From positions 1 through 22,629 of IMG/VR virus record IMGVR_UViG_3300031951_001288: a stretch of 22,629 nucleotides of DNA; one strand, written 5' to 3'. This DNA is from a virus. The position numbers were made by a program, and so were the translations under genes. Positions 5,293 to 22,629 of the stretch are shown here, piece after piece. The notes under the pieces were generated by a model. That model did not search any database, had not been told where the DNA came from, and saw nothing but the letters and a program-made list of their open reading frames with translations. Positions within the stretch are counted from its first letter, which is position 1. The number at the start of each line of letters is the position of its first letter.

Positions 5293-6006
5293 ATGATTAT
5301 ATACAAAACTACAAATTTATTAACGGGAGAGTGGTATATTGGGCAAGATAAGCACAATAGACCTACTTATCTAGGAAGTGGTAAAATTTTAGTTTGTAAA
5401 GTAAAAAAGTACGGGAAGCACAATTTTAAAAAAGAAATATTAGAAGTGTGTAACTCTATCGAAGAGCTAAATAAAGCTGAAGAAAAGTGGATTGACGATA
5501 CCAACGCAGTAAAAGATAGTATGAGCTACAACCTACGTAAGGGCGGTTGTAGATTTCCAGAAAAGCATGGTTCAGATAATCATAATTTTGGTAAATACCC
5601 TATGGCTATGGTTGAAAAGACTAAAAAACCTGTTGTTTGTTTAAATGACGGTAGGGTTTTTGATACATTGACGGAAGCTTCTAGGTACTATAATATACAT
5701 ATTTCTAAAATATCTTTAATATGTAAATTAAAAAGAATTTCTTCTAAGGGATTTGTTTTCCGATATCTAGGTCAGGAAGACTTAAAGAGAAATAGAAAAA
5801 TTGGTGGTTTTAAAAAAGGCGCAAAACCAGTAAATATCAAAAAAGTAATATGTATTGAAAATAATATAGTTTTCGATTCTATTACAGAGGCGGTTAATTA
5901 TTGCCAATCTTTAAATACAAAAACAAATAGACAATCTATAAGAAATGTATGTGATGGAAAATACAAGACCGCTGCTGGTATGAAATGGGGTTGGTATGTC
6001 AACTAG
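5293..6006 (+). CDS. GIY-YIG homing endonuclease 1, free-standing
   Basis: Predicted site-specific DNA endonuclease of the GIY-YIG family (237 aa). The first motif is IIY at residues 2-4, and YIG is at 15-17 within GEWYIGQ. It has the phage-subfamily signature YLGSGK (26-31) ... KKYGKHNFKKEIL (38-50) and a likely metal-binding Glu at 63 or 64 (NKAEEKWI). A degenerate NUMOD3-like motif (GSDNHNFGK) lies near residues 93-101. Two IENR1/NUMOD-like DNA-binding repeats follow, at about 112-160 (VFDTLTEASRYYNI...) and 185-236 (VFDSITEAVNYC...). A GGAAGGG ribosome site (5281-5287) lies inside the end of the giant baseplate gene, so translation is probably coupled. Its last 11 bases overlap the next baseplate gene. 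It ends in TAG. Such genes spread by cutting endonuclease-free alleles; the target is probably near this junction, by inference. Confidence 0.88.
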   Translation: MIIYKTTNLLTGEWYIGQDKHNRPTYLGSGKILVCKVKKYGKHNFKKEILEVCNSIEELNKAEEKWIDDTNAVKDSMSYNLRKGGCRFPEKHGSDNHNFGKYPMAMVEKTKKPVVCLNDGRVFDTLTEASRYYNIHISKISLICKLKRISSKGFVFRYLGQEDLKRNRKIGGFKKGAKPVNIKKVICIENNIVFDSITEAVNYCQSLNTKTNRQSIRNVCDGKYKTAAGMKWGWYVN

Positions 6007-7606: not shown

Positions 7607-8032
7607 ATGGCTCAATCTTTAATACTATCAGGCGCTCAAGTAAAAGTTTACATCAATGGTAAGCTTTGGAAAGAATGTCAGTCTATAAATTATACTATTG
7701 ATTATGGTCAGGAATCTATATTCGGTATTGACTCAGCATTTCCACAAGAAATTAGTCCCGGTCGCATAACGGTTCAGGGCTCTCTTTCTGGTGTTTATGT
7801 TAATGCAAGCGGTGGATTGCAAGGTAATGATATCACGCCTAGAATTACCCAGATACTTTATCAGCCATATATCTCGTTAAGGCTTAAGGATAGGAAAGTA
7901 GATAAAGATATTTTCTTTTGTCCACAAATTGTAATTACCAATGAAAGCACAACCGTAGGCGCTAAAGGTACAGTTAAAGTGAACTTTAGTTTTAGAGGGA
8001 TTATTCCCTATAGCGCTATTGACCTAGCCTAA
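7607..8032 (+). CDS. Small virion structural protein, possible tail-tube fold
   Basis: A 141-residue protein without signal peptide or membrane segment. Its pattern (SGAQVKVYINGKLWKE, then SINYTIDYGQESIFGIDS, PQEISPGRITVQGSLSGVY, and a final NFSFRGIIPY) is an alternation of strands. It resembles small phage structural proteins that adopt a tail-tube-like barrel and sit beside baseplate genes. Start: ATG 7607 with GGAG (7597-7600) just upstream, 3 bases after the stop of the baseplate gene, so it is in the same operon. The 3' end overlaps the convergent minus-strand gene by 9 bases. It could be a tube initiator or a baseplate cap; the sequence alone does not decide. Confidence 0.5.
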   Translation: MAQSLILSGAQVKVYINGKLWKECQSINYTIDYGQESIFGIDSAFPQEISPGRITVQGSLSGVYVNASGGLQGNDITPRITQILYQPYISLRLKDRKVDKDIFFCPQIVITNESTTVGAKGTVKVNFSFRGIIPYSAIDLA

Positions 8033-8323
8033 ATTTTCCCACCAAAATCGGTCAGCTTCCATATCTTGTAGATACAAAGACACCACCTCAGAAGCTTCTT
8101 TTAATGTGTACATACCAGTTACATAGGCTGTTGCATATCCCCAAGTGCTGTAAGGACTTCTTTTAGAAAGCTCATTAGGCTGGTCAGTAAGATGGAAAAG
8201 GCAAAGGCTGACAATATTAGTGTCAGGATTATACCAACAAATAAGGGTGCGGTCATTAATAGTTTTTCGCTCAAGTAACTTCCAACCTTCTTCTTCATCG
8301 ATAGTCTCCAGTAGTAGTTTCAT
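8024..8323 (-). CDS. Hypothetical acidic protein, last gene of the antisense cassette
   Basis: A 99-residue protein with no family I recognise. It begins MKLLLETIDEEEGWKLLERK, has a central beta-like part (TLICWYNPDTNIVSLCLF) and an aromatic end (DRFWWENLG). There is no signal peptide and no clear membrane span. The start ATG (8321-8323) overlaps the TGA of the gene before it as ATGA, a typical coupling arrangement that supports both genes. The stop is TAG at 8024-8026, inside the 3' end of the opposing structural gene 7607-8032. It is probably expressed from the minus-strand promoter near 9126. Function unknown. Confidence 0.68.
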   Translation of the reverse strand: MKLLLETIDEEEGWKLLERKTINDRTLICWYNPDTNIVSLCLFHLTDQPNELSKRSPYSTWGYATAYVTGMYTLKEASEVVSLYLQDMEADRFWWENLG

Positions 8324-8625
8324 TCAACCTCGGATTTACAGTCGGGACAATAATAGAAAAAACTTGTTATTAAATACTTTTTTACTTTGTTTTCGTGTCT
8401 ACAGAATCGGCTGACTCTTTTAGTTTCTTTTGGAACAGGCGGCGGTTCTTCATCGTCAATATCATCAGTGCGATAGGGATGGACCCCGGAATTAGAAGGA
8501 GGATAGTAGAAACCAAAATCTTCTTCCTCGTCTTCGTAAAAGGAATCGATTCCACCTTCAGCAAGCATTTTCTCAAACTCTCTAAGAAGCTCTTCTTCAT
8601 CGCTATTCTTCTTTTGATTTGACAT
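8320..8625 (-). CDS. Small acidic protein with C-terminal CxHx15CxxC zinc-binding motif
   Basis: A 101-residue protein beginning MSNQKKNSDEEELL. The N-terminal two thirds are very acidic (EDEEEDFGF, DDIDDEEPPP) and probably flexible. The last 30 residues carry CRHENKVKKYLITSFFYYC then PDC. The Cys-x-His-x15-Cys-x2-Cys spacing is identical to that in the protein encoded at 8839-9102, so this is probably a small zinc ribbon. Related tails occur in small phage proteins, mostly of unknown role. The start is 23 bases inside the preceding gene; AGAGG lies about 11 bases upstream, which is a long spacing. The TGA stop overlaps the next ATG (ATGA). Function unknown; a DNA- or host-protein-binding accessory factor is one guess. 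Confidence 0.7.
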   Translation of the reverse strand: MSNQKKNSDEEELLREFEKMLAEGGIDSFYEDEEEDFGFYYPPSNSGVHPYRTDDIDDEEPPPVPKETKRVSRFCRHENKVKKYLITSFFYYCPDCKSEVE

Positions 8626-8842
8626 AGATTACAAACGCCTCTCTACTTCCGTTAGTTTCTTGGCATGGTCTACCTGCCACTTTTAGATACTTAGGATGTA
8701 CGTATTTTCTTTGAGCAAAACTAACCTCATTCACTGAGCTTTGCCAAGCGTCAAAATACTCAACCTCTAAATTGTCAACGTAGACTTCAGCCTCTTCGTT
8801 ATCTAGTAAATCTAATAACTTACGTAATTGTTTAACTTTCAT
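8603..8842 (-). CDS. Hypothetical small protein, antisense cassette gene 2
   Basis: A 79-residue protein, MKVKQLRKLLDLLDNEEAEV at the start, then strands EVYVDNLEVEYF and EAFVIYVKSKEE at the end. A longer version from an ATG at 8857 would add five residues, but I prefer 8842: a GGAGAGGA site lies just upstream and the ATG overlaps the previous TGA as ATGA. The helix-then-strands pattern (KQLRKLLDLLDNEEAEVYV) is like small phage proteins of unknown function that start with a leucine-rich helix. It ends with TAG, with TGA one codon further on. The 3' end overlaps the next gene by 23 bases. Confidence 0.68.
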   Translation of the reverse strand: MKVKQLRKLLDLLDNEEAEVYVDNLEVEYFDAWQSSVNEVSFAQRKYVHPKYLKVAGRPCQETNGSREAFVIYVKSKEE

Positions 8843-9102
8843 ACTTCCTCTCCACAAGCCTTACAAACATAGTAATGACTTGTAAGTAAATGTTTTTTAA
8901 CGGTTTCTTTGTGTGGGCAGCTTCTACCTATATCAAAAGAATTCATAGCCTTAATCATATTTTCAGATATTTGTTTAGACGTAGTACTAAGAATACTTTG
9001 AAGGCGTTCAAATTCAGACTCTTCAAGCCAAGCCTGTTCGCCGCTTGATACAAAACCCCTATGCTTAGCTGCATCATCTCGTAACTTTTTAGAATTGCTC
9101 AT
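8839..9102 (-). CDS. Small protein with C-terminal CxHx15CxxC zinc-binding motif, cassette gene 1
   Basis: An 87-residue protein beginning MSNSKKLRDDAAKHRG. A helical middle (EQAWLEESEFERLQSILS) is followed by a C-terminal CPHKETVKKHLLTSHYYVC-KAC. The same Cys-x-His-x15-Cys-x2-Cys tail and a similar MSN[QS]KK start occur in the gene at 8320-8625, so the two are probable paralogues. The frame is open to an ATG at 9240, but that start would place the promoter inside the gene. The ATG at 9102 has AGGAG five bases upstream and an extended -10 motif 19 bases upstream. Its TGA overlaps the next gene's ATG. First gene of a four-gene minus-strand operon; function unknown. Confidence 0.75.
   Translation of the reverse strand: MSNSKKLRDDAAKHRGFVSSGEQAWLEESEFERLQSILSTTSKQISENMIKAMNSFDIGRSCPHKETVKKHLLTSHYYVCKACGEEV
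8846..8853 (-). promoter_or_regulatory. Ribosome binding site deciding the start of the gene at 8603-8842
   Basis: Minus strand reads GGAGAGGAAGT and then ATG. The purine-rich site supports ATG 8842 over the ATG at 8857. Confidence 0.6.
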
Positions 9103-9107
9103 AGAAT

Positions 9108-9112
9108 CTCCT
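9108..9112 (-). promoter_or_regulatory. Ribosome binding site deciding the start of the gene at 8839-9102
   Basis: Minus strand reads TAGGAGATTCT then ATG: AGGAG with 5-base spacing. It selects ATG 9102 over the upstream in-frame ATG codons at 9240 and 9237. Confidence 0.75.
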
Positions 9113-9121
9113 ATTGCATAT

Positions 9122-9130
9122 ATAATACCA
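9122..9130 (-). promoter_or_regulatory. Extended -10 promoter of the antisense cassette
   Basis: Minus strand reads TATGGTATTATA; the TGnTATTAT element covers 9130 down to 9122, 19 bases before ATG 9102. A weak -35-like TTGCAA (9144-9149) lies 16 bases further upstream. The element matches the plus-strand promoters at 9222, 14485 and 14841 in motif and distance to the start codon. Confidence 0.6.
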
Positions 9131-9221
9131 TAACGACAAGTATTTGCAACAAAAATATTAATCTTTATAGTATACGCTATTTTTTTCAATCCTCTAAACA
9201 ATCTAAATAATCCAATAATTA

Positions 9222-9230
9222 TGGTATAAT
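9222..9230 (+). promoter_or_regulatory. Extended -10 promoter of the fibre gene at 9249
   Basis: TTATGGTATAATAAAG contains TG-G-TATAAT, the classic extended -10. It ends 18 bases before ATG 9249; AAGGTG at 9239-9244 serves as ribosome site. No -35 hexamer is visible. Together with the minus-strand element at 9122-9130 it forms a divergent promoter region. Confidence 0.65.
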
Positions 9231-9248
9231 AAAGCATCAAGGTGTAAT

Positions 9249-12026
9249 ATGGCTATTAAAAGATCGGCTAACATATTGAATTCGCAAAGATTGGATGTTC
9301 CTCACATCCGATCTATTGAATCGGCAATAAGAAATGACTTCGATGAAGTAGCCAAAGGTCTGCTTACAGGCGCTAATGAATCTTTTTTTATTCGTGGTTT
9401 TGAAATCAATCTAACGGGAGCCATTGGCTCTTCTTCTACAAGTTTACAAGTACTTGCGGCTGATTCAGCCATTCTACATACTCAATCTTCTGAGTCTGGT
9501 ACTTTCTTTGTCACCGATGCCTCTGAACCAAATCAAACACTTAGCTCTACAACAAATACCAAAGTAGAAGGGTCTTTCACACCCGGCGCTATAAACTATG
9601 TTGGGATTGAATTTGTAAGAGCTGTAGATGATTCTACAACCGCTCAAGTGTATTTTTGGAATCCAACTACAGAAACTGAATTTGTAAAAACAGTACCTTT
9701 AGCTCAAACACTAAGTTATAAGTTTGTAATTTCACCTTCCATATTTACATCAAATATACTTCCTTTAGCCATTATCGAAACCGATGCGGCTAATAACGTC
9801 TTGTCTGTTGAAGATCGCAGACCTATGTTTTTCAGACTGGGTACTGCAGGCACTAGTACTCCAGACCCTTCTTATGTTTATCCTTGGGATGATGGAAGAG
9901 TAGAGAATAACTTTAAGACTACATCTAGCGCATCTTCACCATTTGTTGGTGGAGACAAGCAAATTCGTACCGAAAAAGAATGGAAAGACGCAGTAATGTC
10001 TGCCATTAAAGAAATTAAAGGTACGACTTACTGGTATTCAGAAAACGTCTCAGGCTCATTAGTTAAGACTAAGCAAGATATTGCCAGCATGATGATGACG
10101 GGTGTTGGAGATATCTCACATAGCGAAGCTATTGCTGGTAAAATTAATTGGTCAGATGATATTCATTTTAACTTTGTAGGTTCGAGACTTACATATACTA
10201 TTCTCGCAAACCCTGCCACATCTCATATTATTCTATCCGACGACCAAGCCGCTTACATGAAATTGGTTCGTGGTCAGTCGATCACTCCTCTATTAGTTTT
10301 TACTAATGGTTCTAGTATTGTAAGTTCTGTTGGAGCTGTTTCTTGGACCAATGATGTAATGGCTGGAGACTTTGTAAAACAAGCTTCTCAACTAGATACT
10401 AAATATTATAAAATATTGTCGGTAAATTCAGCTTCTCAAGTAACTTTATCTACGCCTTTCCTAGAGGCATCTACGGGTATAGGTGGTTCGGCAGCTCAAT
10501 ATGCTTGGGGTAAGTATTTAACTGACGCCGCTCCTTCAACCGACAGACATATTAAAGTAGTTTCTAGAAAAGACGTTCCTTTTGATGAGGATACGTACTG
10601 GTTAATGTTACGCCAAGATAACGGCGGCTCATTAGCTCGTGTTTATATTCGTGGTACGGGATTTGGAGAGTTAGAGCAGGGTGAAAGTGCAGAGATTTCA
10701 GATAATACGTCTAAGGATGTTATTGAATATATCGGTTCTCCTTCTGAAAATATTTCAACTCCAGATTATACAGGAGCTATAGTTCCTGCCGTATTTGAAC
10801 AATTTACTATTACTTTCCCGGCGGCAAATGCTACAACTTCAGGTCAATATTTCCTAGCTAACTCCTCAGGAGATGCTAACGAACATTATTTCTGGATTAA
10901 TAAAGACGGGGCTGGTGGTAATCCTTTAATTCCGGGTAAATTTGCTAATGCAATTGCAGTTACTACAGGTCAGCCTAATACAGTAGTTGCAGCAGCGGCT
11001 ACGATTGTTATTAACGCTATTGGTGATTTCAACGCAGTAAATAATTTAGACGGTACTGTAACGGTAACTTTATCACAAGCTGGTAACTGTACAGACGCAT
11101 CGAACGTTGATGTTGCCGGTCTTTCAATTGTTACAAACACTCAGGGTGCTGGAGCTACAAATAATTATATTGTAGACGATGAAAATCTTACTAGGTCTAT
11201 CAAACGCTTAGACCAAGCCTTAGGTGATTTTGTAGATTCTATTAGCTTAGAAGGCTATGAAGAAAAAATTGATGTAGTTTCAGGCGCTCCGGCTAATGAT
11301 AATGAACTTACAGGTCCTGTATCTGTCAGTACTACATTTTCAGTTCCTCTTAATTCAAGAAATAGCGATGTTCAACAAACCTATGTTGTAGGCTCAGGTA
11401 CTTTAGCTGTTTATTTAAACGGTATCAGATTATTTGCAGGTTCTGACTATACTGAAGTCGGCGCTCCAGCTAGTGATAGTTATCAGATAACTACATTAGT
11501 AATACTAGAAGTAGATGACGTTCTAGTATTTAAAATTGAAGGCGAAGGCGCAGGTGGCGGTGGCGGCGGTGGTGGTAGCTATACAGGTGCGAACCTAGGT
11601 ACTGTTTCTTCAGCTAACGTATTTAAACAACTTGCTGGTTCTCAATTTCAATTCCGTAGACTTACTGCTGGTTCAAACGTTACTATTACAGAAAACGCTA
11701 ACGATATTGTAATTTCCTCAAGTTCTGGAGTAGCTAATAGTTCAACAGCCACAAAGACTTCTAGCTATTCTGTAAACTCTACAGACGATGTAATTTTAGC
11801 AGACACAAGCTCTGGAAGTATTATTCTTACTTTACCTGACGCAACTTCAGTTGACGGTAAAATATACAATTTTAAAAAAATTGCAGCACTAAACAGTATG
11901 TTTGTTAAATCAATTTCATCACAAACTCTTGACGGAGTAGATATCGATGCAGCTCCTTTAGATGTAGCTATTCAATACGAAAGCTTAACTTTAGTTGCCT
12001 CAGGTGGCGCTTGGTATATCCTATAA
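9249..12026 (+). CDS. Large tail fibre or tail-associated structural protein
   Basis: A 925-residue virion protein. The N-terminal block (about 1-220) contains RSIESAIRNDFDEVAKGLLTG and ends SVEDRRPMFFRLG followed by YPWDDGRVENN, a pattern seen in large phage tail proteins. Near 10330-10470 it has MAGDFVKQASQLDTKYYKIL, a distant relative of the baseplate module. Near 10860-11160 a unit with FWINKDG, DGTVTVTL and GNCTDASNVDV matches one in the giant baseplate protein. After an NG-DY unit (about 11390-11530) comes an eight-glycine linker, then a typical fibre end: RRLTAGSNVTITENANDIVI and a final domain SGSIILTLPDA ... GAWYIL. Start ATG 9249 has AAGGTG and its own promoter. Host binding or fibre attachment is inferred. 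Confidence 0.68.
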   Translation: MAIKRSANILNSQRLDVPHIRSIESAIRNDFDEVAKGLLTGANESFFIRGFEINLTGAIGSSSTSLQVLAADSAILHTQSSESGTFFVTDASEPNQTLSSTTNTKVEGSFTPGAINYVGIEFVRAVDDSTTAQVYFWNPTTETEFVKTVPLAQTLSYKFVISPSIFTSNILPLAIIETDAANNVLSVEDRRPMFFRLGTAGTSTPDPSYVYPWDDGRVENNFKTTSSASSPFVGGDKQIRTEKEWKDAVMSAIKEIKGTTYWYSENVSGSLVKTKQDIASMMMTGVGDISHSEAIAGKINWSDDIHFNFVGSRLTYTILANPATSHIILSDDQAAYMKLVRGQSITPLLVFTNGSSIVSSVGAVSWTNDVMAGDFVKQASQLDTKYYKILSVNSASQVTLSTPFLEASTGIGGSAAQYAWGKYLTDAAPSTDRHIKVVSRKDVPFDEDTYWLMLRQDNGGSLARVYIRGTGFGELEQGESAEISDNTSKDVIEYIGSPSENISTPDYTGAIVPAVFEQFTITFPAANATTSGQYFLANSSGDANEHYFWINKDGAGGNPLIPGKFANAIAVTTGQPNTVVAAAATIVINAIGDFNAVNNLDGTVTVTLSQAGNCTDASNVDVAGLSIVTNTQGAGATNNYIVDDENLTRSIKRLDQALGDFVDSISLEGYEEKIDVVSGAPANDNELTGPVSVSTTFSVPLNSRNSDVQQTYVVGSGTLAVYLNGIRLFAGSDYTEVGAPASDSYQITTLVILEVDDVLVFKIEGEGAGGGGGGGGSYTGANLGTVSSANVFKQLAGSQFQFRRLTAGSNVTITENANDIVISSSSGVANSSTATKTSSYSVNSTDDVILADTSSGSIILTLPDATSVDGKIYNFKKIAALNSMFVKSISSQTLDGVDIDAAPLDVAIQYESLTLVASGGAWYIL
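11553..11576 (+). repeat. Eight-glycine linker in the 925-residue fibre protein
   Basis: Eight GGT/GGC codons in a row encode a flexible hinge between the NG-DY unit and the C-terminal fibre tip. Mixed GGT and GGC codons argue against simple recent slippage. Confidence 0.85.
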
Positions 12027-12028
12027 GG
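12025..12028 (+). promoter_or_regulatory. Ribosome binding site deciding the start at 12034
   Basis: AAGG lies over the TAA of the upstream gene, five bases before ATG 12034. It supports this start rather than the in-frame ATG at 11995, which would overlap the fibre gene by 32 bases. Confidence 0.6.
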
Positions 12029-12033
12029 TAAAT

Positions 12034-12468
12034 ATGAGTTTTAGACCATACAGCGCATTAAAAGCAAGCGGGTTAGAAAGTAAGTTCCAGAATGGAGCTG
12101 GTGTTATTATTGGAAAAGCAACACCGGTTAGAAAGACCAGTACAGGAACTATAGACTTTATTGATGTATCTATAGAAAATGAAGTATTGGCTCTTATTGG
12201 AGTTACTTCGTCTTCTATTTTGACCGACAGTATAGGTCCGGTTATCACTCATGGAAGGATAGAAAACGTAACGATTTCAGCTACTTTTGGCGATGCTATC
12301 TATCTTGGAAAAGACGGATTTCTAACAAATGTCAAGCCTGACGTAGGCGTAGGCGGATTTGTAGCTGGTGATTTTGTGGTCAGAGTTGCAACAGTAGCTA
12401 GAAATGAAAGTAACTTACTCCAAAAGGATTTGGTGTTAGAAATTACGCTAGTAGGGCAATTAGGATAA
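12034..12468 (+). CDS. Decoration-protein-like beta protein (DUF2190-like fold)
   Basis: A 144-residue protein. Residues about 20-130 follow the pattern GVIIGKATPVRKTSTG ... LALIGVTSSSI ... GPVITHGRIENV ... FGDAIYLGKDGFLTN ... FVVRVATV, which resembles DUF2190-type capsid decoration / head-fibre proteins. The same pattern occurs at the C-terminus of the fibre gene 12722-14482. In this tail-fibre context it may be a virion accessory or fibre-tip part rather than a head protein. It begins 7 bases after the preceding stop, in the same operon as 9249-12026. The fold call is by eye. Confidence 0.58.
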   Translation: MSFRPYSALKASGLESKFQNGAGVIIGKATPVRKTSTGTIDFIDVSIENEVLALIGVTSSSILTDSIGPVITHGRIENVTISATFGDAIYLGKDGFLTNVKPDVGVGGFVAGDFVVRVATVARNESNLLQKDLVLEITLVGQLG

Positions 12469-12470
12469 AA

Positions 12471-12674
12471 ATGATTAATAGACCTAGAACAGTGGATTTA
12501 ACCAAAATCACACCAGAGCAAGAAGAGCAAATTGGCAAGGTTTTAACAGCTAAGTTATCGGAAATATTAGAAACTGCTGGTAAGCAAGCTAATGCAATTC
12601 TTAATACTTACGGTATGGAAGTACAAATAGCCTACAAGCTTAAGAAGCAATCCAAAACCAAAAAGAAATCCTAA
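12471..12674 (+). CDS. Small basic-tailed hypothetical protein
   Basis: A 67-residue protein, MINRPRTVDLTKITPEQEEQ, followed by a predicted helix (IGKVLTAKLSEILETAGKQANAIL) and a lysine-rich end (KLKKQSKTKKKS). AGGAT lies just upstream; the ATG is 2 bases after the previous TAA, so it is coupled to the decoration-like gene. No family recognised. Size, position and basic tail would fit a small virion-associated or chaperone-like protein, but nothing in the sequence shows this. Confidence 0.65.
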   Translation: MINRPRTVDLTKITPEQEEQIGKVLTAKLSEILETAGKQANAILNTYGMEVQIAYKLKKQSKTKKKS

Positions 12675-12698
12675 TCTTTATAACATATAACAATAATT

Positions 12699-12704
12699 TA
12701 CAAT
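12699..12704 (+). promoter_or_regulatory. Possible weak -10 element upstream of the fibre gene at 12722
   Basis: TACAAT matches the -10 hexamer at five of six bases and ends 17 bases before ATG 12722, close to the spacing of the stronger elements. It lacks the TG extension, so it is only a candidate. The surrounding 47-base gap holds AGGA (12711-12714) as ribosome site and no visible terminator. Confidence 0.25.
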
Positions 12705-12721
12705 AACCGTAGGATAATATT

Positions 12722-14482
12722 ATGGCTGATATTTCGATCGTAAGTAGGCTCATTGGAAGTATCCAAAGAAACATTGACCTTCAACAAAATTCATTAGTTG
12801 TAGGTTCTTTAAAAGTCGGAACGACTTCGCCTGTAGAGCTTACTAAGACCATTCTTCAAAATCTAGTCAATCTTCAAAACGGCTCTGATTTTTCTACTGG
12901 TACGAACGCTCATACCCATGACGGTCGTTACTTTACAGAAACTGAGCTAGGCGCTTCAAGCGCCTCTTCAGGCTCTGATCTTATCGGTGACGACAATACT
13001 TATACTAACTTTACTCCAAGCGCTGCAACTGTAAAAGGTGCTTTAGCTGGAATTGATTCAGCTCTTGCTACCGCAGGTGGTACAGATTTCTTAGATACTC
13101 TTTTTAGAATCTCTGACGACGATACACCTTCTAAAAAAATTGCCTTCCAAGCATCTGCTATTACAGCCTCTACTGTTCGTACAATTTCAATGCCTGACGC
13201 TAACGTAAACTTAGCTGATGTTAATCAAGCTCTTTTACAAAACGGCACTCGTTCTCTTCTAGCTAACCTAGATGCTAACGGAAATAAAGTAACAAACTTA
13301 GCTACAGCTACAAACGCTGCTGATGCTGTTCGTTTCGATCAATTACAAAACGCTCTAGCTGGTCTAGACTTCCAACCTGATATTAATGATGTAGTTCTTG
13401 ACGGAGCTACTACTTTTCCGGGTACTGGACTTCCAGCAGCCGCCCTTGGTCAACGCTACATTATCGTAGATACTTCAGCTCTAGATGTAGCTTGGGGTAC
13501 AATTACAGGTGTTGGCAATAACGATATCGTACAATACAACGGCTCTTCTTGGGTAGTTGCTTACGATGTTTCAGTTCAAGGCGAAGGCGCTCTTGCTTGG
13601 GATAGAGATTCAAACACTTTCCAGAAATGGGACGGTACTGCTTGGGCTGAATTTGGTGGGCTTGCTGGCATAACTGCTGGTAACGGTCTTACTAAATCAG
13701 GCAATACATTAGACCTTAACTTTAATGAAATGTCAGCAGTTTCAATCGCTTCTGGCGATGAGCTTGCTTTTGGTGACGTTTCTGACTCTAACATTGTTAA
13801 GAAAATCACTCTTGCTAACTTTAACGCAGCTCTTGACCACGATACTCTATCTGGTTTTGTAGCTAACGAACATATCGACCACTCGACTGTCTCAATCGCT
13901 ACTGCGGCTGATTCAGGCTTGAGCGGCGGTGGAGATATCACAACTACTCGTAACCTTGTAGTTGATATTGCCGGTACTACTGAAGCTACCTCTGTAGCTG
14001 GAACTGATGAAGTTCTTGCAAACGTAGGCGGAAACCGTAGAAAAGTTAAAGTTAAGAACTTACTTAAAAATCAACAGACAATCAAAACCTTCCTTGCTGG
14101 TGAAGCAATGGCGGCTGATACAACTTGGGCTGTAAGGATTGCGGTATCAGGTGAAACCGCTGGTCGTGTTTACAAAGCTGACTACGATGCTACTTCAGCT
14201 AATAACTTTTATGTTATCGGTGTAGTTCAATCTGCTGTAGCGATTACTGCTGGTGATACTGTTGAAGTTATCACCCAAGGTGAAGTTGCTCAAATGGCTA
14301 ACGATGTAGCTTTTGATTCAACTGAAATCGGTCAACCAGTTCATCTTAAAGCCGCTGGAGCTTGGGATGCTAACGGTGCAATTACTTATGTTGCTAACCA
14401 AGCCTCTTTTAGATTTGGGTATGTCCAAACAACTACCTCAATTTTCTTAGACGGAAGTAAACAGCTTAACGGCGTTGCTTAA
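12722..14482 (+). CDS. Tail fibre protein with HTHDGRY motif and decoration-like C-terminus
   Basis: A 586-residue fibre protein. The N-terminal part (LVVGSLKVGTTSPVELTKTI) ends in AHTHDGRYFTETEL, with HTHDGRY at residues 64-70, a motif common in phage fibres. The middle has repeated fibre strands: GNKVTNLATATNAADAVRF near residues 187-205, a QRYIIVDTSALD unit, NGLTKSGNTLDLNF, and LSGGGDITTTRNLVV near 400. Residues about 450-586 (FLAGEAMAADTTWAVR ... VIGVVQSAVAITAGDTVEV ... IGQPVHLKAAGAW) match the neighbouring decoration-like protein. Its codons favour C endings (AAC, TTC) more than the baseplate genes, which may reflect high expression. Start ATG 12722 after AGGA. Confidence 0.75.
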   Translation: MADISIVSRLIGSIQRNIDLQQNSLVVGSLKVGTTSPVELTKTILQNLVNLQNGSDFSTGTNAHTHDGRYFTETELGASSASSGSDLIGDDNTYTNFTPSAATVKGALAGIDSALATAGGTDFLDTLFRISDDDTPSKKIAFQASAITASTVRTISMPDANVNLADVNQALLQNGTRSLLANLDANGNKVTNLATATNAADAVRFDQLQNALAGLDFQPDINDVVLDGATTFPGTGLPAAALGQRYIIVDTSALDVAWGTITGVGNNDIVQYNGSSWVVAYDVSVQGEGALAWDRDSNTFQKWDGTAWAEFGGLAGITAGNGLTKSGNTLDLNFNEMSAVSIASGDELAFGDVSDSNIVKKITLANFNAALDHDTLSGFVANEHIDHSTVSIATAADSGLSGGGDITTTRNLVVDIAGTTEATSVAGTDEVLANVGGNRRKVKVKNLLKNQQTIKTFLAGEAMAADTTWAVRIAVSGETAGRVYKADYDATSANNFYVIGVVQSAVAITAGDTVEVITQGEVAQMANDVAFDSTEIGQPVHLKAAGAWDANGAITYVANQASFRFGYVQTTTSIFLDGSKQLNGVA

Positions 14483-14484
14483 TA

Positions 14485-14493
14485 TGGTATAAT
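14485..14493 (+). promoter_or_regulatory. Extended -10 promoter of the gene at 14514
   Basis: ATATGGTATAATACC contains TG-G-TATAAT three bases after the TAA of the fibre gene and ends 20 bases before ATG 14514. GGTATAATACC (14486-14496) is also a perfect inverted repeat with a one-base centre. No good -35 hexamer. Confidence 0.65.
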
Positions 14494-14497
14494 ACCT

Positions 14498-14504
14498 AAG
14501 GAGG
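14498..14504 (+). promoter_or_regulatory. Strong ribosome binding site of the gene at 14514
   Basis: AAGGAGG followed by AGA, nine bases before ATG 14514. It is the closest match in the window to the anti-SD sequence. If transcription starts about seven bases after the -10, it would start within this site. Confidence 0.7.
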
Positions 14505-14513
14505 AGACATTAC

Positions 14514-14834
14514 ATGGCTAAGTTCCTTAGGTTGGTTAACGGTATCATGAAGAGTTTTGAAGAATCTGGCTCATCTACTATCTATGACAGATATTTAGAA
14601 GTTGTAGCTTCAGGTGCTGGAGCTAATCAAATTAACGGACCTATTACTGCCGGTACGAACATAACCCTCCCTAGTTCTCAAACATATACAGGTGATGAAT
14701 TACAAGTTTTCCTGAATGGTTTGAGGCTCGATAACGTACTTGATTACAATCACGTTTCTTCTACACAAATTAGCTTTTTATTTAATTTAGAAGTTACTGA
14801 TGTTTTAAGGTTCTACATCGACCGAAATTTCTAA
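14514..14834 (+). CDS. Short fibre-associated structural protein
   Basis: A 106-residue protein. The N-terminal half (MAKFLRLVNGIMKSFEESGS) is followed by TAGTNITLPSS and a C-terminal unit with DELQVFLNGLRL, NVLDYNHVSSTQISF and LEVTDVLRFYID. This unit also occurs in the 925-residue fibre protein (LAVYLNGIRLFAGSDYTEV ... LEVDDVLVFKI). Such NG-DY units are common in phage fibre and tip proteins. It has its own promoter and the best ribosome site in the window, so it may be made in large amounts. Role inferred from the shared unit and neighbours. Confidence 0.68.
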   Translation: MAKFLRLVNGIMKSFEESGSSTIYDRYLEVVASGAGANQINGPITAGTNITLPSSQTYTGDELQVFLNGLRLDNVLDYNHVSSTQISFLFNLEVTDVLRFYIDRNF

Positions 14835-14840
14835 TAAACA

Positions 14841-14849
14841 TGGTATAAT
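14841..14849 (+). promoter_or_regulatory. Extended -10 promoter of the giant fibre gene
   Basis: CATGGTATAATAAAA contains TG-G-TATAAT; it ends 18 bases before ATG 14868, with AGGA at 14857-14860 as ribosome site. Same motif and spacing as at 9222. No -35 hexamer visible. Confidence 0.65.
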
Positions 14850-14867
14850 AAAATACAGGAATACAAT

Positions 14868-17800
14868 ATGGCTGATACAAAACCAGATTCACGACAGATT
14901 AAGAAACGCTCAGCGCTACCTAGATTAGGTACGGCGGCTAACGCTACCGTTGAAGCTATTCTTGATAAAGTTAACGTTGACGCTAACTACCCATTAAGGC
15001 TGGCAGCTTCAGATACTCCTGATGCTAGACTTAATTTTTCTTCATCTTCAGTGGTATCTGCTGATTCAGCCAATGAAATCGTATCTCCTGTTAAAAAACA
15101 AATTTTCCCTTCCCTATCATCTCCTTGGATTAACTTCCAGACTCAAGCCGTATCTAATGCTGCTGATTTTGATATCGTATTTCCTGTAACAAATACAGTA
15201 GGTCGTTTTCGTCAAGCTGGGTTCACTTTAATTAGTTCTGGTAAAATCAAAGTATTGTTTTCTGACGAGGCTTTGACCGAAGGTGCTCTACCGAATGCGG
15301 GTGCGCTTTTTGTTAGTGGCGGTCTACCTATTGGCTATGTTGTACTAGAATGTACAAATACTTCAGGTTATTTTAAAACAGCAGGTTCTGCTTCAAGTAT
15401 CATTGAAAACGCTAAAATCTTCCGCTTTGGTTCAGGTGCTGGTGGCGGCTCAGGTACTGGTGATGCAAATACATTTACTGAAAATTTAAAGCACAGACTT
15501 ACTTCATCTTACTATGAATTCGTAACTCCTGTTGTTTTTGAATCTGATGAACAGACTCGCACAGCCTCGGCTACAGCTACTTTTGATATCGTAGACGGTG
15601 TTTATAGATTCAATAACGCTGCAGAAAATTTCGTATCTATTCAAATGTTTGATACTGAGTTTCTTGCTAATGATGACGATAGTCGTCAAGTAGAGCTTCA
15701 TGCTGAATGGTTTGATAGCGCCTCTAGAGACGATAGCGCTACCTATCAAGTGGCTCTGGATGGTACAAACTACGAAACAGTAACAATGACTCGCCAAGGG
15801 CTTTCTCAAAAGTTTACTGGAAGTAAGCTATTAGCGGTTCCTTCAAGCGTTGTTGTTCTTAGTCAAGCTTCTACCGATACCAATACAGAACTTGATGCGT
15901 CTTCTTTACAAGCATTATCTGCTCCATTCACTTTATCTGCAAAAAATGCAATCTCACAACTTGCAATTGAAATAGATGAGCTTGGTACTCCAGTTGGTTC
16001 TTATATCGTATCTATATGTAAAGATAATTCTGGCGTTCCGGGCGATGTAATATTCAGTAAAATAGCGTTAGTATCTACATTAAATTCTGGACTAAATGTA
16101 ATTACCCTAAATAGTTTCAGAAACGTTCTTGTTGCCGGAAACTATCATATTAAGATTGAAACAGACGCTACCTATAAAGCAGGATTCAGCGCTGGCGTAA
16201 ATAGCATTAGATTAAAAACCAACTCTGGCGGAAATGATTTAGTTTATAATGGTACTACTTGGAGTGCTGGTACTGTTGATTTGAAATACGCACTATCAGG
16301 TCATGCTTATGATTTGAGAGTTCAAGTTGCATCATCAGCCGGTTCAAAAAAGCTAAAAGCTTTCGGTATTTTCTATGATGAGCAAGTTGGTGACGCTATT
16401 GACGGTATTGACGCAACTCAAACATTTATATTTAGTGGTGACTTAAATACTACCACTTTCCTAGTTACAAACTTCCTTCCTACTCAAGAAAAATTAAAAG
16501 TATACGATATCAAAACCGGACAGGTTTACAGATATCCAGCATTTCAAATTAACGGTAATACAATAACTTTCGATTCTGGAACATTTCTAGTTCCGGGCGA
16601 AACTGTTCAGTTAATTTTCGACCAAAGTGAAGGCGCTGCAATTGCCTCTTCTGTAGTAGTAACTGGTACTGGCGGTGGAGCTGGTGACTTAGATACCCTA
16701 CTTTCTCAAACATTTGACTCTTCTGCTTTGGGTGATTTTACTCAGACTGGTCTTGAGCTTATTACAACAAATCCGTTGAATGGAACTCAGTCAGCTCGTC
16801 TTGTTCACCAAGCAGCTTCTAATCGTTCATTTAAACAAACAGTTGCTATTGCGCCTAAATTCCGTGGCGTAAACATGACAGCTTCTGTTGCAATTCGTTC
16901 ATCTGCCTCTCAAGGTAACGTAACGATTGCATTCCGTGATGAAACCAACGGCGTTGACTATCCAAGTCAGCAGCTCCAGACTAACTCACAAGCCATTGCT
17001 TCGCTTGTAACAAACTCAACAATTACAGTGTCGGGCTTCTCTAACTCAAGCATTAACACGCTAAAAGTGGGCATGACCGTTACTGGTTCTGGTATCCAAA
17101 CAGGTACAAGAATTGCGACTATCAACACTACAGCATTAACCATTACGCTTTCACAAGCCGCTACAGCTTCTGCTACTGTTTCGCTTCGCTTCTCTGATTT
17201 GCCACGTACTTTACAACTTGGCTTCAATATTCCAGCAAACTGCTCAAGCTATTCTTATACAATTTCTGCATTGCAAGAATCCGGTTCTCCAGAAACTTAC
17301 ATTGATGATGTTGTACTTAAGAACTACTGGCTTGGAATGAGTAATCAGGGACAAAGCACCCTTTCTGTTCCAAGCATTACACAGCAATCTCAATACTTAG
17401 AACAATCTGGGAGTGTTGGAGTTGCTACAGTAACTGGAGCAGCTACTTCAACGGTTGGTACTGATATTTTCAGTTACAACTCTGGAACCGGGCTTTACAC
17501 CGTACTTAAAGATGCTAACTTTACTTTAAATCTTTTGATGCGTAGTGCTTCTGCTGTTAAAATTGAACCTATTATTGTTGTAAATGGAGTTGATACAATA
17601 TATAGCTCAAGTGATACCGCCGCAGGAAACTCATTTGCTAACTGCACATATTCTCAAACTCTGCCAGTTGGAGCTACGTTCTCCTTTAGAAACTCAGTTG
17701 GAACTACAGATGTTAGACGCATTTCAATTAGTGCTGACGCTGTAACAACTTCACAAATTACAACAAACGACCTCGTTCCAGCAAAAGCAGTGCTTGGCAA

Positions 17801-20800
17801 CAGCACAATTGATATTCCTAACATGACAGCTTGGCAGGGATATACGCCAGCATTCCAAGGCTTTGGTACGCCAAGTGCTGTGGAGTTTGAGTGGAGACAA
17901 GTTGGAGAAAACGTAGAAATTCGTGGTAAGTTTACTGCTGGAGTAGTAACTACCGCTGAAGCTCGTGTTGGACTCCCTGTTGGATTAACTTCTGCTGGAA
18001 CAAGTATTATTCCAAGTTTAACTTTGGCAGGCGATCACGTAAGAAATAACCAAGGCTCAACATACTTTAGAGGTTCAATATTAATAGAACCATCGGTGTC
18101 CTATATCACATTCGGCGCTCAAAGCTCAACTCAAAACGCTTTGACTAAAGTAATTGGGACAAACCTTGTAAACAATAGTGACACAGTTTCATTAACTGCC
18201 TCTATCCCATGCGCAGGATTGTCAGCTACTGAGCAAATCGTAGTTTCTGGCACTCAAAGTGCATTGGTGGAAGAGGGTGATAGTAATTTGGAAATGTCGG
18301 ATAGTTCATCTATTGCTGCAAATGCCATTTATACATTTTCTACAGTTACTAGGTCTATAGGCGATGCCATTAGATATGAAAATGCCACAGGTAGATTCTA
18401 TGCTACAAAAAATGGTACATTCTCAGCTTCGATGTGGGTTACTCCGGCATCTGTTTCTGGAGTACTACCGCAATTATATAGAGTTGTAAACGGAGCAACT
18501 TCTCTAATGTCAAGACAATTAGGAGTAGCTAGTACAGGTGGGATGACTCACGTATCTAGTTCCTTCTATTTAAATTCTGGGGATTATTTCTATTTTAGCA
18601 ATGATAACAGTGGAGGGGCTGGTACAGTTCGTCAAATGGGCGTTACATACCAAGGCTCCCTAAAAGTCCTTAACACCAGCGCTGACCAAAAAATCACTAT
18701 CCCAACTTCTGAGCTACGCTTTGAAGGTGCTAGTGCTAGAGGTACTGGAACAGAAACAGCAATTGTTCAATTCACTTCCATGACTAAGATTCGCGGTGAT
18801 GCTTTCACAGTTGATAACAGTAATGGTACTGCTATTACTATGACGAAAGCTGGTAAACTCGATGTGAGTTCTAGTTTAAGGAATAGTAATGGGAGTTGTA
18901 GAATATCTAGAAATCAAGCTATTAGAACAGCACTACCGACCTCTTCTGAAACTTTAGCCGGTGAATCTGGTGTTGCGCTTGATTCTACGATTGCTTGGTC
19001 TGGGTTTGTATCAGCCGGAGATGTAATTAGAATTTGTGCAGATAACACACCAACGTCTGCTGTAGCAAACAACCTAAACCTAGCTTTCCAAGAGCAAGAC
19101 ATTTCTGTTTCTGTAACCAACACATTGCCACAATTCTCGGAGTCTGACTCCTCGGTGAGAGTTGATACAGCTAATGGGTATGGATCAACCGCTACTAAGA
19201 TTCGTAGATTTAGCAATATTAGGGATAATGTTGGTACAGATATTGAATACACAGATAGTGCGGCAAATGGTGCTAGTTTTACGGCAATGTCTAGCGGTAT
19301 TTATATGATTAGTTATTCTGAACAAACAACATTAAATACAACACCTAGAATCGGTATCAGTAAAAATGCGTCATCACTTATTAATAATATTGATGATATA
19401 TCAGCAAATGAAAGGTTAGCTATTTCTTCTGACGAAGGTGGTTCATCAGCAAGTAAATACATGTCAGTTTCTTGGCAAGGCTACTTGCAATCTGGTGATA
19501 TAATTAGACCTCATTCTTCTGGACAAACAAATACTGTACCGGGAGGGGTAACATTTACAATCTCCAAAGTCGGTAAGCCTAACGTAACTGGCGTAGATGT
19601 GACTCCATTTGTGAATGTGTCGCAGCCTGAACAAGGGGCCACTGTTAGAAATTATACAAGCTTACTGGCATCTAACGTATTTAATTTTAACACGGTTGTT
19701 GAGGATAAAAATATTAACAAATTTCTCAGCTACGATCCTACTACAGGTAAATGGACGGCTCTTAAAAGAGTGACAATTGATGTTTCTTTTTTTGTAATGA
19801 CTATCAATGGAGTTAGTATATCTATTGATAAAAATGATAGCTCTCTAGCTATATCTGATAGTGGAGGGGCTGCTGTAGGAGGATATCACAGAGCAAATGG
19901 ATCAGCTAAAACGATACTTGAAGCCGGTGAAACTATTAGATTAAGAGCACTGGCAGCTCCGAGTACAATTTATTCAACCAATTATTTTTCTATAGAGGCT
20001 ACAGCACTCTCCGACCAAATACTAACAGCACCTGAAACCTTCAGCACAGACACTGCAGCTTTGCAATATGCAAGCTCTACACAGTACACACTTAGTACTT
20101 TGGCGAATGCTCCTGTTGGTACTTTTATTACTTTTGTACACAGTGCAAATTCTAATACTAGAACTCAAACAACAGCGAATCCTCCTTCTCAAAGTACTAG
20201 CGATATGAATGCAAATGGTATTATTTTGACTACAAGAGCGTATAATGCTGGTAGTAGCTCTGCTACTCCTTCTGCGTTTGCAATTCAAATTGGTAAAGGA
20301 CTTAAGGGATTAAGTTTAAATCTTTACAAAAGTTCAGCTAAAACTGGCTCTGGTTCTTTAGATGGTATTCAATATGCATCTACTACATTTATAGGTGCTG
20401 CAGTTAAAAGTTATAACGAAAATACGGGAATACTATACATTGATACTGGATATCAAACATCAACTACAACTTCTGCCAACTTTGTATTTGATGATTTGAC
20501 AACAGCAACTTCAGGCTACCTCGTAATCAACGCAAGCAAGAATGTTTCGCTCACGGGAATGAATATTGAGCGAGTGGCAGCTAGAGGAATTAACACCGCA
20601 GGAACAGTAATGAACGCAACTGGTGTAACAATGCCAGTAACTGTTGTATTTGATACTCATGGAGCCTTAAACACTAACGGAACTTTTACTGCTCCAGAAA
20701 CTGGATATTATCAAATATCTGCTTCTATGTATTACTCAAATGCTACCTATGCCGTTGGTCAGGCTGTATATATTCAGGGTTTCAAAAATGGCGTTTTATA

Positions 20801-21002
20801 CAGTACAAGTATGGTCTTCAGGGTTGGTGCTGCTACAACTACATTTATGGGAGCAGGACCATATTCTGATCTAGTATTTTTAGGAAGAGGTGAAACTTTT
20901 CAAGTTAGGGGTGTAAACGAAAGAGGGGCTACGGCTCTTGATACTGGAACTACAGTTAACTTTTTTTCAATTGCTAAAGTAAATATCGGTAAACAACAAT
21001 GA
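14868..21002 (+). CDS. Giant modular tail fibre with tandem C1q-like jelly rolls
   Basis: A 2,044-residue virion protein, probably a long tail fibre or receptor-binding protein. In order: an N-terminal anchor region with DARLNFSSSSVV; a Gly-rich hinge near 15430 (GSGAGGGSGTGDANTFTE) and LKHRLTSSYYEFVTPVVF, seen in other phage spikes; jelly-roll-like units near 15840-16650 (CKDNSGVPGDVIFS ... KIETD); a carbohydrate-binding-like unit (16690-17330) split by a small insert; a fibre unit with AWQGYTPAFQGFG (17815-18245); and about six C1q-like modules between 17405 and 21002. The last ends NFFSIAKVNIGKQQ, a typical C1q closing strand. It has its own promoter, and its TGA overlaps the following endonuclease ATG. 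Receptor binding is inferred from the modules; the host ligand is unknown. Confidence 0.78.
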   Translation: MADTKPDSRQIKKRSALPRLGTAANATVEAILDKVNVDANYPLRLAASDTPDARLNFSSSSVVSADSANEIVSPVKKQIFPSLSSPWINFQTQAVSNAADFDIVFPVTNTVGRFRQAGFTLISSGKIKVLFSDEALTEGALPNAGALFVSGGLPIGYVVLECTNTSGYFKTAGSASSIIENAKIFRFGSGAGGGSGTGDANTFTENLKHRLTSSYYEFVTPVVFESDEQTRTASATATFDIVDGVYRFNNAAENFVSIQMFDTEFLANDDDSRQVELHAEWFDSASRDDSATYQVALDGTNYETVTMTRQGLSQKFTGSKLLAVPSSVVVLSQASTDTNTELDASSLQALSAPFTLSAKNAISQLAIEIDELGTPVGSYIVSICKDNSGVPGDVIFSKIALVSTLNSGLNVITLNSFRNVLVAGNYHIKIETDATYKAGFSAGVNSIRLKTNSGGNDLVYNGTTWSAGTVDLKYALSGHAYDLRVQVASSAGSKKLKAFGIFYDEQVGDAIDGIDATQTFIFSGDLNTTTFLVTNFLPTQEKLKVYDIKTGQVYRYPAFQINGNTITFDSGTFLVPGETVQLIFDQSEGAAIASSVVVTGTGGGAGDLDTLLSQTFDSSALGDFTQTGLELITTNPLNGTQSARLVHQAASNRSFKQTVAIAPKFRGVNMTASVAIRSSASQGNVTIAFRDETNGVDYPSQQLQTNSQAIASLVTNSTITVSGFSNSSINTLKVGMTVTGSGIQTGTRIATINTTALTITLSQAATASATVSLRFSDLPRTLQLGFNIPANCSSYSYTISALQESGSPETYIDDVVLKNYWLGMSNQGQSTLSVPSITQQSQYLEQSGSVGVATVTGAATSTVGTDIFSYNSGTGLYTVLKDANFTLNLLMRSASAVKIEPIIVVNGVDTIYSSSDTAAGNSFANCTYSQTLPVGATFSFRNSVGTTDVRRISISADAVTTSQITTNDLVPAKAVLGNSTIDIPNMTAWQGYTPAFQGFGTPSAVEFEWRQVGENVEIRGKFTAGVVTTAEARVGLPVGLTSAGTSIIPSLTLAGDHVRNNQGSTYFRGSILIEPSVSYITFGAQSSTQNALTKVIGTNLVNNSDTVSLTASIPCAGLSATEQIVVSGTQSALVEEGDSNLEMSDSSSIAANAIYTFSTVTRSIGDAIRYENATGRFYATKNGTFSASMWVTPASVSGVLPQLYRVVNGATSLMSRQLGVASTGGMTHVSSSFYLNSGDYFYFSNDNSGGAGTVRQMGVTYQGSLKVLNTSADQKITIPTSELRFEGASARGTGTETAIVQFTSMTKIRGDAFTVDNSNGTAITMTKAGKLDVSSSLRNSNGSCRISRNQAIRTALPTSSETLAGESGVALDSTIAWSGFVSAGDVIRICADNTPTSAVANNLNLAFQEQDISVSVTNTLPQFSESDSSVRVDTANGYGSTATKIRRFSNIRDNVGTDIEYTDSAANGASFTAMSSGIYMISYSEQTTLNTTPRIGISKNASSLINNIDDISANERLAISSDEGGSSASKYMSVSWQGYLQSGDIIRPHSSGQTNTVPGGVTFTISKVGKPNVTGVDVTPFVNVSQPEQGATVRNYTSLLASNVFNFNTVVEDKNINKFLSYDPTTGKWTALKRVTIDVSFFVMTINGVSISIDKNDSSLAISDSGGAAVGGYHRANGSAKTILEAGETIRLRALAAPSTIYSTNYFSIEATALSDQILTAPETFSTDTAALQYASSTQYTLSTLANAPVGTFITFVHSANSNTRTQTTANPPSQSTSDMNANGIILTTRAYNAGSSSATPSAFAIQIGKGLKGLSLNLYKSSAKTGSGSLDGIQYASTTFIGAAVKSYNENTGILYIDTGYQTSTTTSANFVFDDLTTATSGYLVINASKNVSLTGMNIERVAARGINTAGTVMNATGVTMPVTVVFDTHGALNTNGTFTAPETGYYQISASMYYSNATYAVGQAVYIQGFKNGVLYSTSMVFRVGAATTTFMGAGPYSDLVFLGRGETFQVRGVNERGATALDTGTTVNFFSIAKVNIGKQQ
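17000..17195 (+). repeat. Small beta insert inside a carbohydrate-binding-like module of the giant fibre
   Basis: Encodes ITVSGFSNSS, then LKVGMTVTGSGIQTGTRI and TITLSQAATASATV, a compact unit (VGM-x-V-x-G-x-GI ... GT-x-I ... LS-x-x-A) found in many phage tail proteins. The flanks (FRDETNGVDYPSQQL before, LPRTLQLGFNIPANC after) read as one domain when the insert is removed. Edges approximate. Confidence 0.55.
17405..21002 (+). repeat. Tandem C1q-like modules of the giant fibre
   Basis: About six jelly-roll units of 110-150 residues sharing: an entry strand; a short -G-x-x-F-x-x-x-x-x-G-x-[YF] turn (for example NGTFTAPETGYYQISASM); an NG or KN turn; and L-x-x-G-[DE]-x-[IVF] near the end (SGDYFYF, AGDVIRI, SGDIIRP, AGETIRL, RGETFQV). 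Approximate copies: 17405-17755, 18260-18680, 18735-19110, 19135-19595, 19660-20015 and 20590-20990. The DNA of the copies is well diverged. The last copy is the clearest match; the others are by pattern. Confidence 0.6.
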
Positions 21003-21724
21003 AATGGCTAGTATATCTACACTATAGATTAGACACTGGAGAATGTTTTTACATTGGTAAAGGTACTGAAAAACGTGCCCGAGCTAGGGATTGTCGCAAT
21101 CCTATTTGGAAACGTATAGAAGCAAAAGCTGGTAGAAAAGTAGTAATTGTGCAATTTTTTGAAAAAGAGCAAGACGCTTTAGATTTTGAAGTTGACTTAA
21201 TAGCTCGTTATAAACCTATCGCAAATATTTCTGCTGGTGGAGAAGGTGTTTCTGGCTTAAGGCACACAGAAGAAACAAAAGAAAAGTGTAGACAAGCTAC
21301 TCTGAAACTAAGACAAGATTCAAAATGGCTTGAAAAAAACCTTAATAATATGAAAGAAGCTGTTTCTAAACCAGAATCAAAATCTAAAGTTTCAAAAGCT
21401 AGAAAAGCCTTCTTTAAAAATGAGCAAAATAGAAAGCACATGTCCATAAAGCAATCTGAGTTTATCAAAAATAATCCAGAACGTAATGCTAAAAGACAAC
21501 AACTATCTATAGAAGCTAAACAAACTCCTGAGTATAGATTGCTATCATCAAGAGTTCAAGGCGGAAGAGATTTTTTAGTATTTAAAAATGGTAAATTAAT
21601 TACAGAAGCTAGTATTCTTAATCAATTTGCTAGAGAACATAATTTACATGCTGCTGCAATTCATCGTTGTTTAACTGGCAAACAAAAAGAACATAAAGGT
21701 TATACATTTAAATACAAGGACTAA
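20999..21724 (+). CDS. GIY-YIG homing endonuclease 2, free-standing
   Basis: Predicted site-specific endonuclease (241 aa). The first motif is LVY (residues 4-6), YIGKG is at 18-22, the conserved Arg is probably R26 (TEKRARA) and the catalytic Glu is E64 in FEVDLIARYKP. A NUMOD3 motif follows (GVSGLRHTEETKEKC, about 80-97), then lysine-rich helical repeats (about 110-170) and a C-terminal IENR1-like module (ITEASILNQFAREHNLHAA). It is quite different in sequence from endonuclease 1, so the two arrived separately. The ATG overlaps the TGA of the giant fibre gene as ATGA. Its flanking genes are fibre genes; the cleavage target is probably in an endonuclease-free version of this junction. Confidence 0.9.
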   Translation: MKWLVYLHYRLDTGECFYIGKGTEKRARARDCRNPIWKRIEAKAGRKVVIVQFFEKEQDALDFEVDLIARYKPIANISAGGEGVSGLRHTEETKEKCRQATLKLRQDSKWLEKNLNNMKEAVSKPESKSKVSKARKAFFKNEQNRKHMSIKQSEFIKNNPERNAKRQQLSIEAKQTPEYRLLSSRVQGGRDFLVFKNGKLITEASILNQFAREHNLHAAAIHRCLTGKQKEHKGYTFKYKD

Positions 21725-21727
21725 TAT

Positions 21728-22216
21728 ATGATTAAAATATCTATCAAAAAACAAGAACAGATTACTAACCAAGGGCTTTTTCCAACAATGGAAGAAGCTC
21801 AAGCTTGGCTTGACAAGCACGAAGGTATGGGTACTTTTGGACAGAAAGCTATCTTTCAAGAGCAAGATGTTCTTGTAGCAGAAGAAGTTCGTGGTCCAGT
21901 TCAGGAACTTGCAACTCCGGCAGTTTATGATAACAATGGAAATGAGCTAGAACCAGCCACATACACTCTAAATCCAGATGGAGTTATATCTCCTGCTATT
22001 TACGAGCGTAGAATTGTTATGGTTTCTCCTGCTCAGTATGAAGTTGTAATTGAGGATATTTCTGCTCAAATTGCACAGGAAGAAGTTAACGCAGAAGCAC
22101 AAGCTTTTCTTGACTCAACAGACTGGATGGTAATTAGAGCTGCAGAGCGTGGAGAAGAGCTTTCTCCAGAGTTTAAAGCAGAGAGACAAGCTGCTCGTAA
22201 TAGGATTATTAAATAA
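21728..22216 (+). CDS. Tail-fibre-assembly-like protein
   Basis: A 162-residue protein. The N-terminal part is MIKISIKKQEQITNQGLFPT with MEEAQAWLDKHEGMGTFG. The middle has repeated short strands ending in proline turns (ATPAVYDNNGNE, SPAIYERRIVM, SPAQYEVVIED). The C-terminus (AQAFLDSTDWMVIRAAERGE ... ARNRI) has the L-x-S-TDW-x-x-x-R signature of fibre-assembly / chaperone-like proteins that sit next to fibre genes. Ribosome site AAGGA (21716-21720), 3 bases after the endonuclease stop. The partner is probably one of the adjacent fibres. Confidence 0.62.
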   Translation: MIKISIKKQEQITNQGLFPTMEEAQAWLDKHEGMGTFGQKAIFQEQDVLVAEEVRGPVQELATPAVYDNNGNELEPATYTLNPDGVISPAIYERRIVMVSPAQYEVVIEDISAQIAQEEVNAEAQAFLDSTDWMVIRAAERGEELSPEFKAERQAARNRIIK

Positions 22217-22231: not shown

Positions 22232-22549
22232 ATGGGAATATTTAAAGAAACCATAGGAACATTGACTGCATCAAGTACAACGCAACTAACTCTTGTAGGT
22301 AGAACTGTTGTTAGACTTGGTGGATTGTTTAAGGTTCTTGACTCTCCAACACTTTCTACCGCCGTTACAGGTATAGGTGGGCTTGATACTGGTACAATTG
22401 CGGCTTCTACTTTTTATTATGTTTACGCTGTTTCTAACGGTACAGCCCATGGAATTGTAGCTTCAACTAGTAATCAACTTCCTACTGGCTTTACAAGATA
22501 TAAGAAAGTTGGAGCGTTTTATACTAATAGCGGTAGTTTGATTTTTTAG
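22232..22549 (+). CDS. Fibre-type protein, N-terminal part, ended by an in-frame TAG
   Basis: 105 residues up to the TAG at 22547-22549. The sequence TLTASSTTQLTLVGR ... GIGGLDTGTIAASTFYYVY ... TSNQLPTGFTRYKKVGAF is a familiar phage fibre module that normally continues into a longer receptor-binding protein. Here the protein would stop after SGSLIF, in the middle of what looks like a strand. Downstream of the TAG the same frame stays open to the window end. Possible readings: a true amber mutation (pseudogene), programmed readthrough, suppression by a tRNA, or a base-call error. An insertion or deletion is excluded because frame is kept. Confidence 0.7.
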   Translation: MGIFKETIGTLTASSTTQLTLVGRTVVRLGGLFKVLDSPTLSTAVTGIGGLDTGTIAASTFYYVYAVSNGTAHGIVASTSNQLPTGFTRYKKVGAFYTNSGSLIF

Positions 22550-22629
22550 GCTTATAGATTTCAAGAAATAAATCAAACCGTTCTCACTACCTATACCGGC
22601 TCTGGTATTCAGACTCCTTTTAGCTGGCA
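22550..22629 (+). other. In-frame continuation of the fibre gene after the amber codon, 3'-partial
   Basis: Twenty-six codons without a stop, in the same frame as 22232-22549: AYRFQEINQTVLTTY and then ...TGSGIQTPFSW, reaching the window edge. The codons (ACC GGC, AGC TGG) and composition look like coding phage fibre sequence, and there is no ATG or ribosome site for a separate gene. The other two plus frames hit stops just after the TAG. Confidence 0.65.

Follow-up and report, generated by a model that had tools for sequence, protein, structure and literature searches.

An in-frame amber codon in the last hundred bases of a phage contig interrupts a small fibre-like gene

The virus record analyzed here (IMGVR_UViG_3300031951_001288; hereafter the window) is linear, is 22,629 bases long in its entirety and contains a tail-gene module. 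Its last gene, which codes for a small fibre-like protein, is broken by an in-frame TAG, beyond which the homology to fibre relatives continues in the same frame. We suggest that a single-base nonsense change, either in the data or in the phage, very probably explains everything seen; it would disrupt a small tail-fibre gene of which all relatives have an intact version. There is about an even chance that the cause is a wrong base in the contig tail, and a real nonsense allele carried by some phage genomes of the population is nearly as likely. All other explanations are jointly improbable, readthrough or suppression by itself distinctly more so, and the regulatory amber codon that was originally proposed is not supported as a real feature.

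A stop codon within a conserved reading frame

The features concerned are the following:

20535..22089, plus strand: segment with a fibre tip, an endonuclease gene and most of a chaperone gene, found without a mismatch in contig G3 at a different fibre locus (contig comparison)
20999..21724, plus strand: free-standing GIY-YIG/NUMOD homing endonuclease gene (PF22083 above the cut-off, PF01541 just below it)
21728..22216, plus strand: tail fibre assembly (chaperone) gene (PHROG 4912, E 4e-8)
22089..22090, no strand: breakpoint within the chaperone gene, where base-for-base identity with contig G1 ends and another cassette lies beyond (contig comparison)
22232..22546, plus strand: N-terminal 105 codons of the small fibre-like gene, with an mtd_2nd domain (open reading frame; PF21916, E 3.9e-8; relatives 40-70% identical)
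22547..22549, plus strand: in-frame TAG, where relatives have AAA, AAT or GGA (frame reading; alignment of relatives)
22550..22627, plus strand: 26 in-frame codons of the same gene, running as far as the contig end (alignment to L007; none of 2,000 shuffles as good)

The last gene starts at ATG 22232, with a GAGGG upstream, and runs for 105 codons to the TAG at 22547-22549, after which the same frame is open for 26 codons, to 22627 at the contig end; the site lies 80 bases from that end. These coordinates reproduce those of the original prediction, as do the stops close by (within about ten codons) in both remaining plus frames and the lack of a new start codon between the TAG and the contig end. 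The 26 codons carry no further damage, a point that counts against a nonsense change. Taken alone, an open run of this length is weak evidence that proves little; in a control using the gene at 14868-21002, 27/121 and 10/233 of the runs that follow a stop in its two wrong plus frames were as long as 26 codons. The observation counts as real because the homology continues past the TAG and not because of the length of the open run.

The protein alignment of relatives drew on 62 IMG/VR loci, many of them near duplicates. The translation of 22550-22627, AYRFQEINQTVLTTYTGSGIQTPFSW (AYRFQEINQTV...), aligns to residues 100 onward of the protein from locus L007, AYFYGEINQTVFSAYF...QTPINW (AYFYGEINQTV...), beginning directly past the lysine aligned with the TAG and reaching a score of 61 that was matched by 0 of 2,000 shuffles. 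The same codons are a direct continuation in L003, L007 and L008, which bears out the earlier impression that they read like fibre sequence, and alignment to fibre proteins, the check then proposed, shows homology on both sides of the TAG in one frame. This homology to fibre relatives on the 3' side makes it a single gene that the stop interrupts.

No stop occurs at the aligned site in any of the relatives whose contig covers it. The column is occupied by Lys (AAA) in L003, L006, L007 and L008, which are also the best matches to the codons 3' of the TAG, by Asn (AAT) in L009 and by Gly (GGA) in L002, and these sense codons agree with the proposal that a base substitution explains the TAG. The six proteins have 207-250 residues in total and extend about 110-150 residues past the site; that is, the homologues read on rather than all ending at the equivalent of SGSLIF, an ending that the original prediction had named as counting against it. 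L002 is the closest relative over the first 104 residues (70% identity) and swaps its C-terminal module exactly at the TAG column for one that is weakly C1q-like, under the Pfam cut-off. The site is therefore a module border. Relatives were found by tblastn in no cultured phages and were confirmed in no bacterial genomes. A search for the TAG context elsewhere gave one exact 20-mer match (L072), with similarity ending where the 20-mer does, and a DNA match resembling YRFQEINQT (L110) was set aside, being located in an unrelated 39-codon frame.

The N terminus of the window protein matches PF21916 (mtd_2nd) with 34 bits (cut-off 24.6) over 92 of the 115 profile positions, and the same domain lies above the cut-off in five of the seven relatives scanned; the PDB yielded no sequence match for the fibre-like protein. 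PF21916 is the second domain of the major tropism determinant (Mtd) of a Bordetella phage. The window protein and its relatives have this domain in common with Mtd, but the relatives show no counterpart of its variable C-terminal domain. The small fibre-like proteins L003, L007 and L008, from uncultured phages in IMG/VR, have both the N-terminal domain and the continuation after the site as in the window; they differ from it in the sense codon at the site and in a complete C-terminal part, with PDW.. at its end. The mtd_2nd domain, together with the adjoining tail-fibre-assembly gene, makes a receptor-binding role plausible.

An AlphaFold2 model of L007 (8 sequences; mean pLDDT of 62, mostly >80 in the N-terminal domain) places Lys99, the residue aligned to the TAG, within the strand formed by residues 97-102, the last of the confidently predicted N-terminal domain. 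A short form would therefore have a clipped N-terminal domain. The TAG is, or would be, a plain stop. Provided that the base is real, the product would be a 105-residue N-terminal fragment that breaks off within the final strand of the first beta domain and is devoid of the C-terminal module.

The contig tail and the origin of the TAG

Three informative contigs were reached via the chaperone gene at 21728-22216. The first, G1 (IMGVR_UViG_3300027816_000127; 54.8 kb), matches the window at every base of 9629-22089 (12,461 bases), and the exact match of the second, G2 (IMGVR_UViG_3300042691_027063; 95.6 kb), stops at the same base, 22089. Beyond the breakpoint, G1 and G2 have another chaperone end and a 228-aa gene, and the cassette of the window is supported only by the third contig, G3 (IMGVR_UViG_3300032093_002247), as far as 22305 and at ~97%. 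Positions 22306-22629 are covered by no other record found, degenerate patterns retrieved no close copies of the window tail from IMG/VR, and the breakpoint sequence of the window occurs in no other record. The window may derive from genuine recombination, or its assembly path may have switched phage within the shared 1.55-kb segment. Because the window parts from its sister contigs 458 bases short of the TAG, the contig tail is suspect; it is the least trustworthy part of the record, and the TAG falls within its weakest 540 bases.

G1 (L106-L108) and G2 (L101-L105) have different metagenome ids and are identical over 48 kb, so they represent the same phage assembled twice; neither is closed. 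Searches for a DNA invertase or a retroelement behind the cassette change or the stop found no Resolvase or RVT_1 domain in G1, G2 or G3, from an incomplete genome; the Mtd likeness thus does not extend in these contigs to the RVT_1 of a diversity-generating retroelement.

Low coverage, a miscalled base where a T run ends or a questionable extension beyond an assembly-graph branch might each have put a wrong base here. The T of the TAG makes the T run one longer than in L003, L006 and L007, and the end of a T run is a usual place for base-call errors. Deciding between an error and a mutation, and saying what becomes of the protein, are both matters of inference. When a single stop lies within the final hundred bases of a metagenomic contig, after that contig has departed from its sister contigs, it needs a check against the reads first. 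A programmed frameshift at the T run was considered and rejected, as the homology remains in frame 0 and both other plus frames meet a stop after about ten codons at most; an internal start 3' of the TAG was likewise rejected, there being no start codon in that stretch.

The proximity of the cassette to a recombination breakpoint and the switch of C-terminal module in L002 at exactly the TAG column would both fit a reading in which a domain-swapped gene truly ends at the TAG, the protein stopping there after recombination at the module border and the later codons being a remnant or part of another gene. The 26 codons after the TAG, however, are the direct continuation in L003, L007 and L008, and there is no start codon from which a new gene could be read, which makes such an end highly unlikely.

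Readthrough and recoding

Were the amber codon functional, a receptor-binding protein would be made in two forms. The original prediction allowed for a short and a long form, by readthrough or a suppressor tRNA. In such a case an amino acid would sometimes be inserted at a real TAG, through its context or a host suppressor tRNA, and virions would carry a mixture of short and long fibres. The retention of frame and homology past the TAG is compatible with such a mechanism, and a short form made by design would likewise end at the module border. However, programmed readthrough would be expected to conserve both the stop and the downstream frame, and in the relatives the frame is kept and the stop in none of them. 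Further, the 80 nt present 3' of the TAG fold like shuffled sequences (z 0.13), the short form would end within a predicted strand (in the L007 model, of modest confidence), and the suppressor tRNA with a CUA anticodon that had been suggested as a check did not turn up: ARAGORN found no tRNA genes in the window, G1, G2 or G3, an incomplete genome of which the window and the two contigs with its exact sequence make up about 112 kb. The literature search on amber readthrough in tail fibres returned nothing relevant. We accordingly consider readthrough very unlikely.

This phage uses TAG as an ordinary stop: the codon terminates four other genes of the window (at 5290 and 6006 and, on the minus strand, at 8024 and 8603) and 10 of the 85 genes of G2. 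Phages using genetic code 15 have TAG within many genes together with suppressor tRNAs (PMC10607447), and the window phage resembles those with recoded TAG, such as phAss-1 (PMC10607447), in having an in-frame TAG in a structural gene. It differs from phAss-1 in that this TAG is single, TAG stops genes elsewhere and no suppressor tRNA was found. Global or late-gene recoding with a phage-encoded suppressor tRNA would predict many in-frame TAG codons and avoidance of TAG as a stop; instead, TAG is absent from the interior of the other tail genes, the longest of which has 2044 codons, and the coding coverage of the window does not rise when TAG is read as sense. Neither is there a phage suppressor tRNA with a CUA anticodon in the window, G1, G2 or G3. 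The code 15 reading is thus already largely refuted and retains next to no probability.

Exchange at the fibre locus and other genes of the window

The surrounding fibre locus deserves more attention than the TAG itself. The 1,555 bases at 20535-22089, which belong to the first fibre locus in the window, G1 and G2, recur unchanged at the second fibre locus of G3 (L109 9123-10677). They encode approximately 155 residues at the C-terminal end of the first fibre, the GIY-YIG endonuclease and most of the chaperone. Outside this segment, the second large fibre locus of G3 is 99.8% identical to that of G2 (77434-86560), in which the corresponding region (82998-87071, in L105) has another fibre tip and lacks the endonuclease. 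At the junction in G3, about 30 nearly identical bases lead from the second fibre locus into the segment copy. Intronless homing with co-conversion of flanking DNA is a reviewed mechanism (PMC2988022), and judging from the sequence comparison, the G3 arrangement looks like homing and co-conversion that moved a fibre tip and its chaperone between fibre loci. A chimeric assembly at this junction is less likely because the loci share there only about 30 imperfect bases.

Among otherwise identical contigs, the N-terminal part of the chaperone gene is constant; the C-terminal ends have been exchanged, and each precedes a different small fibre cassette. The exchange points lie within a short EEVN.EA..FL.STDWM stretch (window 22089-22129, L074 6362-6402 and L109 10677-10717).

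A second GIY-YIG endonuclease gene, which is SegE-like and just under the Pfam cut-off, is located at 5293-6006, flanked by two tail genes of the same module. Four small genes are found on the minus strand at 8024-9240, within the plus-strand tail module. Two of these have similar terminal Cys/His patterns (C..E..VKK.L.TS..Y.C..C..EV), and their products are perhaps small zinc-binding proteins.
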